From contig NZ_JADMLB010000043.1 in NCBI RefSeq assembly GCF_015482765.1, positions 1 through 64,000 of the forward strand: a stretch of 64,000 bases of DNA, written 5' to 3'. Both the position numbers and the translations under genes were made by a program. The notes beneath the pieces were generated by a model. The model searched no databases. It saw only the letters and a list, made by a program, of their open reading frames with translations, and had not been told where the DNA came from. This DNA is from Halodesulfovibrio sp. GTDB taxonomy: Bacteria > Desulfobacterota > Desulfovibrionia > Desulfovibrionales > Desulfovibrionaceae. Of this stretch, positions 11,784 through 40,632 are shown piece after piece (within the stretch, counting starts at the first letter, position 1; every line of letters begins with the position of its first letter).

Positions 11784-12626
11784 CTAGTTGGAGATGTGTT
11801 CCGGCTCTGGAGTGCGTGCCATAAAAGCAATTTCAACAGACCCTGCACCGCCTTGGAGCAGCGTGTTTGTTGCTTGTCGTAAGGTGGAGCCGGTAGTTGT
11901 AATGTCGTCTACCAAAAGAATGTGCTTGTTTCGCAGGGGTGATGGAATTGCAGCAGTGAATGCGCCGGAAAGGTTTTTTTGGCGTTCTTTTTTACTCAAC
12001 GTCGCCTGCGGTGTCGTCGCGCGTGTTCTTCTGAGAAGGTCAGGCATCAAAGGGCGTTCTATTTTTTGCGCTAACAGTTTTGCTGAAAGCATACTCTGAT
12101 TGTGCCCACGTTGCATAAGGCGTGAGTCGTGCAAGGGGATAGGGACAACTGCATCCGGTTTAGTTTCATGCGGGATGTAGATTGCCGCCAGTAGCCGCGC
12201 AAGAGTAAGACCGGCATCTAACCTATTATGAAATTTATGTTTGAGTAATAACTCTCGAAGTATTCCTTCATATGCTCCGTAGAACGTTAGATACGTCCAA
12301 GGGGGAGGAGTGATCAAACATGTAGAACAACGTGAAGGAGATCCGACAGCTTTTGCATACAGCATTCCGCATGAGGGGCAGTAGCCTTGTGTTCTGGGGG
12401 CAAGCTGGCGCAGGCAGTCGGGACACAGCTGTGGTGAAAGGCTCCATTGATGATGGAGCCTTTTGGTATAGTTAGGAGGGGTTGGAGGATTGTTCTGTTC
12501 CTCATACAGTGCTTTAAAAGAGGTACTTTTTGTTGGACTGAAAGGCGCAAAGCAAGAGACGCATCGGGTTTCATCCAATCCGAGAAAGGAGGCAGTACTC
12601 TTGAGTAAGGCAAAAACACTGTGCAT
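11784..12626 (-). CDS. comF: ComF family phosphoribosyltransferase-like protein
   Basis: A 280-residue ComF/GntX-type protein, linked in naturally competent bacteria to DNA uptake and otherwise of unclear function. The N-terminal cysteine clusters CVSC, CPDC, CPSC and CSTC suggest zinc binding. The C-terminal type I phosphoribosyltransferase domain carries PIPLHDSRLMQRGHNQS and the PRPP loop ILLVDDITTTGSTL. An in-frame GTG at 12644 is also open, but ATG at 12626 with GGGGA seven bases upstream is preferred. It follows the iron-sulfur flavoprotein gene closely, probably in one transcript. Confidence 0.88.
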   Translation of the reverse strand: MHSVFALLKSTASFLGLDETRCVSCFAPFSPTKSTSFKALYEEQNNPPTPPNYTKRLHHQWSLSPQLCPDCLRQLAPRTQGYCPSCGMLYAKAVGSPSRCSTCLITPPPWTYLTFYGAYEGILRELLLKHKFHNRLDAGLTLARLLAAIYIPHETKPDAVVPIPLHDSRLMQRGHNQSMLSAKLLAQKIERPLMPDLLRRTRATTPQATLSKKERQKNLSGAFTAAIPSPLRNKHILLVDDITTTGSTLRQATNTLLQGGAGSVEIAFMARTPEPEHISN

Positions 12627-12643
12627 CTTTCGATCCCCGTGCA

Positions 12644-13279
12644 CTATTTTTTCGTTGAGTAAAGCGGAACAGTATCGGCATATGCAGCTTTACCGTACTC
12701 CAAGAGACGCACTTTCGTTTCTGGATCACCGGCAAGTTCGTCTGGGCCGTCTTTGCCGTATATAAGTAACGGTTCTGCCAGATGGATATTGAACGGTGAA
12801 AGGAAATACTTAAGCGTCAGCAAAGAGCCAGTAAAAAGCTGTTCACCGACAGGGCGGGCAGCAACGAGACAAATATATGCCTTCCTTTTTGGAAGTGAAA
12901 GCATAAACGGGTCGCGGTTGAATTCTCGAAACCAGAAACATTGGCAGCGATCTATAAACGTTTTAAAGATAGATGGAAGGTGGTAGAAGTAAATTGGTGA
13001 ACTAAAAAACAATGCCGGTGCTTGAGTGAGCATTGAATACAGTTCAAGACTGTCATCCTTTTTTTCTTGAACGCAAGACGTACTACCGGGAATTGCGCAT
13101 GCTTCACAGGCTGTACAGTGTCGTATGGTGTAATCCCGCATGAAACGTGTGTGTGTCTTGCCGCCTGCAGCTTCGTACCCTTGGGCAAAGAGTTGTGCCG
13201 CATGGTCTGAGTTCCCGTTTTTTCGGGCGCTGCATGCTAAAATTTGGAGTGCATCTGCAAAGGAGTGCGGTGCGTTCAT
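12644..13279 (-). CDS. Iron-sulfur flavoprotein (Isf-like NAD(P)H-dependent FMN reductase fold)
   Basis: A 211-residue flavodoxin-fold protein. SARKNGNSDHAAQ (residues 17-29) is the FMN phosphate loop. The compact motif C55-x2-C58-x2-C61-x7-C69 (HCTACEACAIPGSTSC) matches the spacing described for the [4Fe-4S] cluster of iron-sulfur flavoproteins, which move electrons between ferredoxin-type carriers and small oxidants such as oxygen or peroxide in anaerobes. SSPIYFYHLPSIFKTFIDR is the usual flavin-binding segment. AGGGAGG precedes the ATG. The small gene with an internal TGA ends 24 bases upstream, so the pair is probably co-transcribed. Confidence 0.85.
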   Translation of the reverse strand: MNAPHSFADALQILACSARKNGNSDHAAQLFAQGYEAAGGKTHTRFMRDYTIRHCTACEACAIPGSTSCVQEKKDDSLELYSMLTQAPALFFSSPIYFYHLPSIFKTFIDRCQCFWFREFNRDPFMLSLPKRKAYICLVAARPVGEQLFTGSLLTLKYFLSPFNIHLAEPLLIYGKDGPDELAGDPETKVRLLEYGKAAYADTVPLYSTKK

Positions 13280-13303: not shown

Positions 13304-13552
13304 TTATTTTTTTGCAACACGCTTGCACAGAGCCGAAAGCTCTGTTTCATCATCTGTCTGAATTTCACAGTTCCATTGCGGGTATTTCCCCAGCGCATAC
13401 TCTAAAGGAGCATGTGCCTTTGCCGGAAGCAGAAGAAGGACTTTGTCTTTCTTCTGAAAGCCGAGATAAAAACTTATCTCGAGTCCAAGACCTCAGCATG
13501 CATTGCGAAGGTCGGCTACTGCGGTATCGATGGCTTCAGGGGGTGTTGTCAT
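13304..13552 (-). CDS. Candidate small selenoprotein (82 aa, Sec20), unrecognised family
   Basis: The reading frame from ATG at 13552 runs 19 codons to a TGA at 13493-13495, then continues for 62 codons to TAA. Reading TGA as selenocysteine gives an 82-residue protein starting MTTPPEAIDTAVADLRNAC, with vicinal Cys19-Sec20 and further cysteines at 62 and 76. The part after the TGA looks like real protein (KKDKVLLLLPAKAHAPLEYA, then DDETELSALCKRV). AGGAG lies about seven bases before the ATG. A perfect hairpin follows the TGA (see 13462-13481). The host clearly uses selenocysteine in fdhA. The gene ends 24 bases before the iron-sulfur flavoprotein gene. Alternatives are a pseudogene or a sequencing error at TGA. 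No family is recognised. Confidence 0.6.
13462..13481 (-). promoter_or_regulatory. SECIS-like hairpin after the TGA codon
   Basis: CGAGATAA-GTTT-TTATCTCG forms a perfect eight-base-pair stem with a four-base loop, 11 bases after the TGA. Counting the T of TGA as 1, the loop G and T fall at positions 23 and 24. These are the positions of the essential loop G and U in the E. coli fdhF SECIS element, as I recall it. The bulged U at position 17 of that element is replaced here by a paired A. There is no T-run, so it is not an intrinsic terminator. Confidence 0.55.
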
Positions 13553-13654
13553 ACCTAACTCCTGCTGGATACTTGCCCGTAGTTCTTCTGGTGTAGACTC
13601 GCTCTGAGTATATACCGTTGATGGGGGTGTGCATTTTTTACAGTTTCACAGGCT

Positions 13655-13695
13655 GTAAGAGAAGTTGTTCAGGCACCAAATGATGCCTGAACAAC
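13655..13695 (-). terminator. Intrinsic terminator of the metallo-hydrolase gene
   Basis: GTTGTTCAGGCA and TGCCTGAACAAC form a 12-base-pair stem with an eight-base loop, followed on the minus strand by a pyrimidine-rich TTCTCTT. It begins six bases after the stop codon at 13701 and separates that gene from the candidate selenoprotein operon. The short T tract means termination may be partial. Confidence 0.7.
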
Positions 13696-13700
13696 TGGTA

Positions 13701-14327
13701 TTAGCGCTGGAAATCAGAAAAATACGGGTTGTTAATCTGTTCATCTTTTACGGAAGACTGTGGACCGTGTCCTGAATATACTACAGTTTCCGGTGGTAGT
13801 GCGAAGATTTTTTCTGTTACAGATTTTTTCAGTACATCGAAATCTCCACCGGGAAGGTCTGTTCGGCCAATGGCACGGTAGAAGAGGAGGTCACCCACGA
13901 AAACTGCCTGTGCAGCAGGGAAGAAGAAAGAAAGACTGCCTGGAGAGTGCCCAGGAGTTGCAAAAACTTTACAGTCCAGATCCATAAATGTGTGGTCGCC
14001 TTCTTCGATAGAGGTAAAGGTGAATGGAGGAACCTTAGGGAATCCCCACATGCCGCCCTGTCCAACTTCGGAGTCGAGAAGGAACACATCTTCAGTTCCT
14101 GCAATAACTGCTGCATCTGTTGCTTCTTGTAGATCTTTGATGCCGTATAAATGATCAAAGTGGAAGTGAGTAACAAGAATATGTGTAAGAGTAAGGTTTT
14201 CTTCTTTCAGAAAATCGATAACAGCAGTCGGTTCACCGCCTGGATCAACTGCAATAGCTTTTCCCTCATGGAAAAGAACATAGCAATTTGTTTCAAGCGG
14301 GCCTAAAGGAAATGTTTTTACTTGCAT
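13701..14327 (-). CDS. MBL-fold metallo-hydrolase (glyoxalase II-like)
   Basis: A 208-residue metallo-beta-lactamase-fold enzyme. The dinuclear metal motif is THFHFDHLYG (His54, His56, Asp58, His59). Downstream ligands lie in ATPGHSPGSL and VYSGHGPQSS, and the aspartate in VFVGDLLF. The arrangement fits the YcbL/GloB-like group that hydrolyses thioesters such as lactoylglutathione, but the substrate cannot be fixed. Its ATG overlaps the nitroreductase stop codon by one base (TAATG), which indicates translational coupling. Confidence 0.9.
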   Translation of the reverse strand: MQVKTFPLGPLETNCYVLFHEGKAIAVDPGGEPTAVIDFLKEENLTLTHILVTHFHFDHLYGIKDLQEATDAAVIAGTEDVFLLDSEVGQGGMWGFPKVPPFTFTSIEEGDHTFMDLDCKVFATPGHSPGSLSFFFPAAQAVFVGDLLFYRAIGRTDLPGGDFDVLKKSVTEKIFALPPETVVYSGHGPQSSVKDEQINNPYFSDFQR

Positions 14328-37331: not shown

Positions 37332-40300
37332 TTACGCTCCCTTTATCTTGCTCACGTTAACCATGAACGCCTTTGTTTCCGGAATACCGGTGTTCGGGTC
37401 GCCCACAGAAGGAGTGAGGAGGTTTGCAGAATCACCACCGTGTTTCGGTGTCACCCAGCCGTAGTGCCAAGGAAGACCCACAAGGTGGACATCCTGACCA
37501 TGCACTTTGTATGGCTTGATGCGTTTTGTCACGATGGCAACACATTCGAGCTTACCGCGCAGGCTTGAAACATGAACAGTCTCGCCGTTGGCAATATTTT
37601 CTTTCTTTGCCAGTTCTTCACTGATTTCACAGAACAACTGAGGTTCTGTTTCAATCAACCAACCCTGATAACGGGTCATAAGACCTGTCTGCCAATGTTC
37701 GGTTACACGGTATGTTGTACCGACGTATGGGAAGCGCGGGTTGGCAACTGCTTTTTCTTCACCTTCAATCTGGTACGCTGTCGGGTTGTGCAGTCGTGAT
37801 GAGAACGGGTTCTTCGCAATTGGACATTCAATTGGTTCGTAGTGCTCAGGGAACGGTCCTTCAGCGCGTCCCGGACCGTAGATCTGTCCAAAACCGTGCT
37901 TGCGCATAATGAACGCATGCTTTGTACCAGGTTTCCAACCACCGTCAGGTACGTCGCCCTGCCACTTTGTGGTATCACCTGTCCATTTGATAACAGCTTT
38001 TTTCGGTGCGTACGGCTTACCGGTCAAGTCAACAGATGCTCTGTTGTAGAGAATACGGCGGTTTACAGGCCAACACCATGCCCAGTTAGGGTACAGCCCG
38101 ATATTAGCCTGTGCGTCGTTCTGTTTTTTATCACGACGTGCAGCCATGTTGCCTTTATCTGTGTAGGAACCACAGTAGAGCCAGTTACCGGAACAAGTGG
38201 AACCGTCATCTTTAAGGTACGCGAAGCTAGGCACTTGCTGACCTTTTTTAAACTGCTTCCCTTTCACTTCAGTATCTTTCAGGAAGTAGCCATTGATGAG
38301 TTTGGCGATTCCGTGAGGATCGAAATGGCCATGGCTGTTCTGCCAGTCACTGAGTTCGAGTCCTACGATAGGATCAGGGTAGGAACCGCCCTCAGTTCTG
38401 TAGAGCTGCTGGATGCGGTCGGTGAGTTTAAGGATGATGTCACCGTCCGGAAGTGTTTCGCCATATGGCTTCGGTCCCTGATAACGCCACTGCATCCAGC
38501 GGCCGGAGTTGGTAACAGAGCCTTCTTTTTCGATGGAAACCGCACACGGCAGGAAGAATACTTCTGTTTTGATGTCCTTCGGATTCATATTCGGGCCGCG
38601 CCAGAAGGAAGCTGTTTCGTTATCGAAGATGTTTACGTTAACAAGCCAGTCCAGTTCGGCCATAGCTTCGCGGTTTTTATTTGCGTTTGCACCGCCGCAG
38701 GCAGGGTTCTGTCCCCATGCAAAGAAGCCATCAAACTGCCCCTTATGCATTTTTTCAAACATGGAGAGCCAGTAATATTCTGTCATCGGCTTGTGGGCAT
38801 CAAGTTTCGGCAGCATTTCATACCCTTTCTCAGGGGATGCTTCCGGATACATGGCCTTTACGAAGCTGGAAACATACTTAGGCTTGTTGCCCCACCAGTT
38901 AGCGGACATAGGATCTGCGGACTGCGGGGTACAGTTTTTATTGTATGCTGCAAGGTCTGCCCATTTGGATTTCGGTGTGCCGAGATATCCTGGCAGAATA
39001 TGAACGAGAAGACAGTGGTCAGTGGAACCCTGTACGTTGGATTCACCACGCAGAGCGTTTACACCGCCGCCGGCAACACCGATGTTACCAAGCAGAAGCT
39101 GTACGATTGCCATTGTACGAATGTTCTGAACACCTACTGTATGCTGTGTCCAACCCATCGCGTACATGATGGTTGCAGATTTATCCGGAGCGCCGGAAGC
39201 TGCGTATGTTTCGTATACCTTAAGGATGTCTTCTTTCGGAGTGCCTGTTACTGTTGATACGGTGTCAACATCGTATCGTGCGAAATGCTTTTTGAGCAGG
39301 TTGAAAACACAACGCGGATTCTTCAACGTTTCGTCTCGAACCGGAACGCCTTTTTCATCCATTTCGAAAGCCCATTTGGACTTATCGTAGGAATTGGTTT
39401 TCGGGTCAAAGCCGGAGAATACACCGTCATCAAATTCGTAGTCTTTTCCGACTACAAAAGAAGCGTTGGTGTAATTGACCACATAATCGTGGAAGTGCTT
39501 GTTGTTATCGAGGATGTACTTAACGAGACCGCCAAGGAACGGAATGTCCGCACCGGAGCGAATTGGTGCGTATACATCACATTTGGTGGAAGTACGGGTG
39601 AAACGAGGGTCAACGTGGATGAGTGTTGCGCCCTTGTCTTTCGCCTTCATAACCCATTTAAATGAGATAGGGTGGTTTTCGGCAGCGTTACTGCCCATGA
39701 TTAATACACAGTCACTGTTCTTGAGGTCGATCCAGTGGTTCGTCATCGCACCGCGTCCAAACGACTCTGCCAGAGCCGCTACAGTTGCGCTGTGTCAGAT
39801 ACGCGCCTGATGCTCAATGTACACCAGGCCGAGAGATCTAAGTAATGACTGATATGCCCAGCATTCTTCGTTATCCATAGCTGCTGAGCCTGCGGAAGCA
39901 ATTGCTTCTGTGCGGTTAACCTGTTCCCCTTTCTCATTTTTGAGCTGGAAAGATTTATCGCGGGTTTTTTTTACGCGTTTAGCGATTTCGGTGAGCGCCC
40001 AGTCCCATGAGACCGGCTTCCACTCTGTGCTGTTGGGAGCACGATAGAGTGGAGTTTGAGGGCGGTTAGCGTTTTCGGCCAGCTGCCAGATGGAAGCGCC
40101 TTTTGCACACAGGGAGCCTTCGTTGATAGGGTGATCTGGATCACCTTCTACGTTAATTGCGCGTCCTGCTCCGTCCTTGGCTGTGTGTACAATAAGACCA
40201 CAACCTACAGCACAGTAACAGCAGACAGAAGTTGTCTGCTTGGCCCATTTAAGCTTTTGAAGCTCAGCTTTCGCAACGGTCGGCTTTAAAGAAATACCGA

Positions 40301-40370
40301 GTCCGCCAAATGCAGTTGCGGTGGCAGCACCTGCAGAAAGCTTGAGGAATTGCCTACGGGAGACTGTCAT
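37332..40370 (-). CDS. fdhA: Selenocysteine-containing formate dehydrogenase catalytic (alpha) subunit
   Basis: With the TGA at 39795-39797 read as selenocysteine the product has 1012 residues and Sec192 in EHQARIUHSAT, the ligand of the Mo or W atom. The N-terminus is a twin-arginine signal (SRRQFLKLSAGAA), so the enzyme is periplasmic. CCYCAVGCGLIVHT binds a [4Fe-4S] cluster. NNKHFHDYVVNYTNASFV, VMKAKDKGATLIHVDPR and NVGVAGGG-like NIGVAGGGVNALRG fit bis-MGD binding. It oxidises formate to CO2 in the periplasm. ATG at 40370, preceded by AGGAGG, starts the Tat signal. The apparent split into two frames is not a frameshift: both halves share one frame. Confidence 0.97.
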
Positions 40371-40395
40371 TGTTCCTCCTAGTAATGAAGCGTTG

Positions 40396-40632
40396 CTATC
40401 GGCCTCGTATTTCACGACCCAATGCTATTTGCAGACTGAAACCCGAGCCGTATCCATTACAGACAAGGAGAAGGTCTGGCAGCATGTGGCGTGAACAGAG
40501 AACTTTTTCATAACGGACCGGAATAAGGTGGCAACACGCAGCCCTGGCGGTTACGCCGGACAACGCTATTCCGAGTCCTGAAAAAGGAAGCAAAGCCGCT
40601 TCATTGTGTTGAGAACGAGTTGTACGTTCCAT
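40396..40632 (-). CDS. Possible small ORF upstream of fdhA (78 aa)
   Basis: An ORF from ATG 40632 (GGAAGG upstream) to TAG ends 25 bases before fdhA on the same strand. The product begins MERTTRSQHNEAALLPFSGL and contains ARAACCHL, VLCSRH and LLVCNGYG, so it has four cysteines in 78 residues. I do not recognise the family. Its position and ribosome binding site would make it the first gene of the fdh operon or a leader peptide; it could also be a chance ORF in the leader. Confidence 0.35.
   Translation of the reverse strand: MERTTRSQHNEAALLPFSGLGIALSGVTARAACCHLIPVRYEKVLCSRHMLPDLLLVCNGYGSGFSLQIALGREIRGR

Follow-up and report, generated by a model that had tools for sequence, protein, structure and literature searches.

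Thioredoxin reductase carries a C-terminal Gly-Cys-Sec-Gly sequence able to close into a selenenylsulfide, which a flavin reduces. The Cys-Sec-Gly tripeptide is common to this enzyme and to the small protein described here, although in thioredoxin reductase the motif lies at the flavoenzyme's own C-terminus, whereas here it is internal and belongs to a separate small protein. The TusA/SirA/TsuB (YeeD) family (PF01206) may resemble the protein in predicted fold, and is like it in length and in having its reactive residue six positions past a conserved Asp (or its counterpart), but the selenoprotein has C-U-G in place of C-P-x-P, lacks a PF01206 match, shows weak profile similarity and is limited to one order in the samples searched. 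A vicinal Cys-Sec motif is shared by KCU-star (DUF466), MbdU, SaoC, SaoL, HgcA and Csac_0668, according to Table 1 of a 2026 review (PMC13188914), which lists 119 selenoprotein families. The deep-Sep paper (PMC12013277) states that every selenoprotein known so far now appears to have homologs with Cys, and that a family lacking them may be filtered out.

The locus lies in the window, by which we mean the whole stretch of Halodesulfovibrio DNA that was analysed (64 kb). The original prediction had described an ATG with a ribosome binding site, 19 codons, an in-frame TGA, 62 more codons, a TAA and, 24 nt further on, a flavoprotein gene, but it had omitted the strand. All of these elements are present on the minus strand, where the gene occupies 13304..13552: the ribosome binding site GGAG (13559..13562) lies 6 nt ahead of the ATG at 13552, 19 codons lead to the TGA (13493..13495), which stands immediately 3' of the Cys19 codon, and 62 codons follow before the TAA that ends at 13304; the flavoprotein gene starts 24 nt beyond, with its ATG at 13279. 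With the TGA translated as Sec (U, residue 20), the product has 82 residues and begins MTTPPEAIDTAVADLRNACUGLGLEISFYLGFQKK. Ordinary gene finding, with a table 11 reading, would end the gene at the TGA. No frame of this kind exists on the plus strand of 13304-13552, and that reading was rejected. We also rejected a longer N-terminus reached through a further in-frame TGA upstream (about 13553-13655, minus strand), because it is absent from the genus members examined; the stretch itself is protein-like and Cys-rich, with the sequence L-U-N-C-K-K-C.

Searching with the 82-residue protein, we obtained matches in 105 of the 288 host-family genomes, and 104 of these matches contain the TGA. The 105th, in genome G233 (L088, L150), proved to be a spurious frame and was dropped; the real ortholog of that genome also has the TGA. 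In a sample of 297 genomes from the order, 156 were matched by a profile, and members in other families of the order surfaced only at this level. Among the order-profile matches listed, every place except that of genome G341 holds the TGA; the two of the 156 genomes without a TGA gene are G341, which has a TGA-less ortholog, and G165, which has only a Cys-containing paralog. In a sample of the phylum, the profile matched 6 of 395 genomes, all within the host family, and plasmid records gave no family match. In the samples searched, family members were seen within one order only. A scan of public genomes, incomplete and resting on one effective pattern (the other spells C-C-G and is blind to a TGA), yielded at least 17 loci, of which 15 are real and all have the TGA, while two (L045 and L047) were judged spurious and dropped. 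In total, 132 loci were collected, and they gave 92 distinct sequences; dropped before this count were 15 loci without such a TGA: 11 with Cys paralogs (one sequence occurring twice), two with the G341 ortholog and two with the G233 artefact.

All 92 distinct homologs continue past the TGA, which stands at the same column in each of them, and are conserved on both sides of it, with D and R before and G, E, L and W after; the pattern that would have counted against the gene, homologs all ending at the TGA or starting after it, did not occur. The Sec codon lies six residues past a conserved Asp (D-x5-U) in 92 of 92. The vicinal Cys19-Sec20 pair of the original prediction holds for nearly the whole family, since the residue before Sec is Cys in 91/92 members; the residue after it is Gly in 85/92. 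C-U-G as a whole is found in 84/92 members, and the remainder have C-U-H, C-U-R, C-U-A or, in one case, G-U-G. One member from genome G329 (L099) is intact, while in another (L115, G228 C1) a TAA 36 codons past the Sec codon interrupts the frame, possibly marking a decaying gene. In a third (L118, G004 C6), selB is about 1.1 kb away and on the other strand.

For six genus members, including that of the window, dN/dS was 0.17 before the TGA, 0.04 in the codons of the SECIS and 0.09 beyond; the more distant members of the genus were left out of this set, and synonymous sites are near saturation. The low dN/dS past the TGA therefore indicates that the frame after it is coding. The host genome appears equipped for selenocysteine insertion, with a SelB match of 389 bits (cut-off 242) and a tRNA-Sec of 84.6 bits (gathering threshold 47). 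Across 205 good genomes of the host family (completeness of 90% or more, contamination of 5% or less), in which a match with E 1e-72 or better counted as presence of SelB (a threshold set from the observed scores), the gene turned up in 107 of 177 genomes with SelB and in 3 of 28 without it (p 7e-7, treating relatives as independent); some of the absences of the gene may be misses, because one underlying profile search reached only part of the family. The three genomes that have the gene without a full SelB match (G175, G263 and G269) are assemblies of 430, 490 and 220 contigs, respectively, and SelB is also present in 70 of the 177 good genomes where the gene was not found. The host also seems to use Sec elsewhere, as had been claimed for its fdhA: a gene for an fdhA-like molybdopterin oxidoreductase with a TAT signal match (37332-40415, minus strand) has a frame that stays open through an in-frame TGA near 39797, and it is likely to be a second selenoprotein gene of the window.

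Immediately after the TGA lies the predicted SECIS hairpin (13462..13481, minus strand), with the DNA sequence CGAGATAA-GTTT-TTATCTCG. As originally claimed, it begins 11 nt past the TGA, forms a perfect stem of 8 bp and presents in its loop, GUUU, a G at position 23 and a U at position 24, counted from the U of UGA. The folding energy of this hairpin is not exceptional: relative to dinucleotide shuffles it has a z of -1.49, with 16 of 200 shuffles equal or better, and relative to synonymous recodings a z of -0.67 (p 0.275). For the window itself, energy was rejected as a proof of SECIS since these values are too weak, and we therefore relied on covariation and on codon usage. In the family as a whole, folding compared with synonymous recoding gave a mean z of -2.07, with 49 of 87 distinct 48-mers at p ≤0.05. 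Over 80 distinct stretches of 42 nt, a seven-pair stem was formed in 93.0% of 560 cells, against a mean of 86.7% after shuffling and with 0 of 500 shuffles as high; 36 cells were changed on both sides of the stem, against a shuffled mean of 6.7, and versions of the stem slid along the sequence paired in at most 67.3% of cells. The innermost pair of the stem is broken in 19 of 80 SECIS sequences. The loop GU at 23-24 is present in 71/87 distinct 48-mers and missing from 16/87, and thus it is not universal. Some members, for example L098-L100, break the standard stem, and by eye a shifted stem around the same loop seems to be formed in them.

The hairpin requires particular codons, ones that these genes use less often elsewhere. 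Where it forces a Val codon, GTA is used in 44/57 sequences, compared with 26/380 farther along the same genes (p 2e-30), and where it forces a Leu codon, CTC is used in 79/87 compared with 47/384 (p 1e-46). The forced Glu codon is GAG in 80/80 (257/473 farther along), and the forced Gly codon is GGT in 50/63 (31/262 farther along). In the same set of genes, no comparable bias was seen at one Gly codon outside the stem.

A single ortholog lacking the TGA was found, that of G341 (L086/L136), in which C-P-C replaces C-U-G and which still adjoins the flavoprotein gene. The best SelB match of this genome has an E-value of 1.7e-26, under the cut-off, and the TGA and SelB are both present in G295 and G343, which belong to the same genus; the SelB look-up outside the family extended to 41 of 60 order genomes (G288-G347) and was used for these three only. 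SelB is likely to be absent from G341, but because the assembly is 85% complete this is unproven. G341 looks like a natural case of Sec loss, the two other members of its genus that were checked having kept Sec. More distant relatives are the Cys paralogs, of which 11 were matched in 19 chosen genomes (L085, L141, L143-L149, L151 and L152), nine as second matches and two as the sole match of their genome (G162 and G165); a sample of 297 genomes of the phylum gave one. They follow the pattern D-x-[RK]-x3-C-G-L-[VMI]-P. When eight of them were aligned and compared with the Sec family, the profiles matched over 77 columns with a probability of 99.2% (E 3.6e-19), and an invariant Cys fell on the Sec column; scanning the eight gave no credible Pfam match. 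Thus the paralogs are homologous to the Sec family over 77 columns and have Cys where it has Sec, but they lack Sec, the residue ahead of their Cys varies (C, T, V or K), and their C-terminus is different.

We conclude from these comparisons that UGA at codon 20 is almost certainly read as Sec, by way of SelB and the downstream hairpin. We regard conservation as decisive for the reality of the feature, as the claimed 82-residue selenoprotein is supported by 92 distinct homologs with the TGA at the same column, by purifying selection past it and by a covarying hairpin. It is true that a table 11 reading terminates at the TGA and that L115 has an additional TAA, as would be expected if the TGA were a real stop and the locus coded for two short peptides or were a pseudogene, with an accidental similarity downstream. 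However, that 92 distinct members share the TGA column, that selection is purifying beyond it, and that the hairpin covaries and the gene is associated with SelB makes a real stop scarcely credible. It is also very improbable, nothing having been found in its favour, that the UGA is read as some other amino acid, or is passed by general leakage of the stop codon, without Sec. Such a reading sits poorly with a hairpin that comes right after the TGA and has GU at 23-24 in most members, and with the presence of both SelB and tRNA-Sec in the genome; the ortholog without a TGA sits in a genome without SelB over the cut-off, and the paralogs have Cys at the Sec column.

Downstream of the selenoprotein gene, after the 24 nt noted above, lies a gene on the same strand (12644..13279, minus) with an FMN_red domain (PF03358, E 2.9e-14) and the motif C-x2-C-x2-C-x7-C. 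By this domain and the compact four-Cys motif, its product is a predicted iron-sulfur flavoprotein. In 85/92 loci, a flavoprotein gene follows immediately downstream in the same orientation, an arrangement that extends to genomes from other families (L090-L102) of the order, and in 79 of the 85 the gap ranges from -30 to +60 nt, ten pairs overlapping by four bases (with starts picked by script). The Cys motif, in the form C-x2-C-x2-C-x4-8-C, is found in 60 of the 85 neighbours, and by eye the other 25 have a longer last spacing. No flavoprotein gene was found in the flanks of six members (genera g3, g17, g23 and g39), and the sequence of L133 is too short to tell. At one locus without an adjoining flavoprotein gene (L104), the selenoprotein gene follows genes assigned by Pfam to Zip and GDT1 metal transporters; by eye, a GDT1-like gene holds the same place in L105.

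Two other genes of the neighbourhood are also syntenic, each in 81/92 loci when truncated loci are scored as misses. Upstream is a gene for a hydrolase of the metallo-beta-lactamase (MBL) fold (13701..14327, minus strand; PF00753, E 1.9e-31), whose functional tie to the selenoprotein is putative. After the flavoprotein gene comes a gene with a phosphoribosyltransferase domain (11784..12644, minus strand; PF00156, E 2.8e-8), which we take to be ComF-like and which is probably bystander synteny. The upstream genes on this strand also include one with a nitroreductase domain. A perfect inverted repeat of 12 bp (13664-13695) in the interval between the MBL and selenoprotein genes resembles a terminator, suggesting that the two are transcribed separately. 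The adjacency of the flavoprotein gene is the strongest functional clue. The link with the flavoprotein that the original prediction had proposed is supported by this synteny, and the two proteins may act together in redox chemistry, as it had suggested.

An AlphaFold2 model built with 45 family sequences (pLDDT 85) has the order beta-alpha-beta-alpha-beta-beta and places Sec20 just ahead of helix 1 (residues 22-32), six residues past the conserved Asp. Structural comparison of the model gave as its best matches TsuB with a Z of 9.4 (2.7 Å over 75 residues), the SirA-like structure 3hz7 with a Z of 8.5 (2.3 Å over 70 residues) and E. coli TusA with a Z of 8.0 (2.9 Å over 74 residues), while other folds of the same class scored close to these (Smr domain, Z 8.2; Alba, Z 7.6). 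A Foldseek search with the first model returned no match under E 0.001, and Alba, SpoVS and methyltransferases ranked first. When solved structures were searched by sequence, only weak and unrelated matches appeared, the best with E-values of 0.16 and 0.018, and TusA was not among the matches listed. Profile similarity to TusA is weak, 10% when compared directly and 52% by way of the Cys paralogs. No match to PF01206 up to E 1 was obtained in 26 members (HMMER filters remove most matches with an E-value over 0.1); another gene of the host genome is matched by this model (E 2.1e-12). The CPxP motif is missing from the selenoprotein family, which has C-U-G in the large majority of its members where C-P-x-P stands in 18/18 aligned TusA domains. 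In these 18 domains, which were taken from relatives, the CPxP Cys sits six residues past Asp or its counterpart, a spacing identical to that of Sec. The predicted shape and the position of the reactive residue thus look like those of TusA. We do not assign the protein to the TusA/SirA family (PF01206), given that it lacks the model match and the CPxP motif.

What the protein does can be proposed from these features. A redox or sulfur relay based on the Cys-Sec pair, with the flavoprotein serving it, would proceed as follows: Sec20 would attack a sulfur, selenium or peroxide substrate; Cys19 may then resolve the Sec20 intermediate as a selenenylsulfide, closing a Cys-Sec ring; and the co-encoded iron-sulfur/FMN flavoprotein would give or take electrons, resetting the Cys19-Sec20 pair. 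A persulfide, polysulfide or thiosulfate as the substrate would fit the fold and the host. We give the complete statement, that this is a genuine selenoprotein of about 80 residues with a Cys-Sec redox mechanism served by the flavoprotein, slightly better than even chances. Its more specific form is offered tentatively, as a possibility: a selenium-dependent sulfur relay specific to the order, in which a TusA-like carrier may have acquired Sec for the persulfide Cys, together with a new adjacent Cys, to become a fast switch for redox or sulfur transfer driven by a dedicated flavoprotein. In this sulfur-relay reading, the family would have gone unnoticed because orthologs without the TGA are nearly non-existent.

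Two other functions of a true selenoprotein have to be weighed against the flavoprotein-served Cys-Sec mechanism. The TusA-like predicted fold, the TusA-like spacing of six between a conserved Asp (or its counterpart) and the reactive residue, the MBL-fold hydrolase upstream in most loci and the fact that the hosts are sulfate reducers would all suit a carrier of sulfur or selenium in the sense of TusA/TsuB, with Sec carrying a perselenosulfide and the flavoprotein acting later or on the cargo. We consider such a carrier somewhat unlikely: the CPxP of TusA is missing, with C-U-G in its place in nearly all members, PF01206 gave no reported match, and a neighbouring Cys that almost never varies is more in keeping with a redox pair than with a carrier. 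If, on the other hand, the flavoprotein link reflects inherited gene order only, the function could lie elsewhere, for example in metal handling, as the Zip and GDT1 metal transporter genes ahead of the gene at L104 may hint; the MBL and phosphoribosyltransferase genes are syntenic too, and no joint function is obvious. But the flavoprotein gene is the nearest downstream neighbour, its junctions are short or overlapping in the great majority of cases, and the adjacency persists in other families of the order, making inherited gene order an improbable explanation.

The selenoprotein family seems to be absent from the published lists with which we compared it. In 26 members, neither Pfam nor NCBIfam gave a credible match; the sole NCBIfam match was that of one member to an unrelated model (E 0.078), in a library that includes one or more recent selenoprotein models, NF047643 among them. 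KCU-star (DUF466, NF033934), whose inclusion in the library is assumed, was not among the matches, and neither was any NCBIfam model named for the other C-U motif selenoproteins. Table 1 of PMC13188914 contains no family that fits the description, the families of two Haft papers being compared only through that table. No description was found in the consulted parts of PMC13188914, PMC12013277, PMC9312934, PMC1794560, PMC5322559 and PMC2432076. The test genomes of the deep-Sep paper (PMC12013277) included Desulfomicrobium orale and Salidesulfovibrio onnuriiensis, for which its table gives no new selenoprotein.

Relative to the list of 119 in Table 1 of that review (PMC13188914), the family would extend the catalogue of selenoprotein families by one, and one with matches in roughly half of the order's sampled genomes (156/297, two of them without a TGA gene). 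With a single TGA-less ortholog and otherwise only distant Cys paralogs, it would come close to the case that methods of the deep-Sep type miss, as far as the consulted parts of that paper describe them. It also poses a concrete question on the chemistry of selenium and sulfur.
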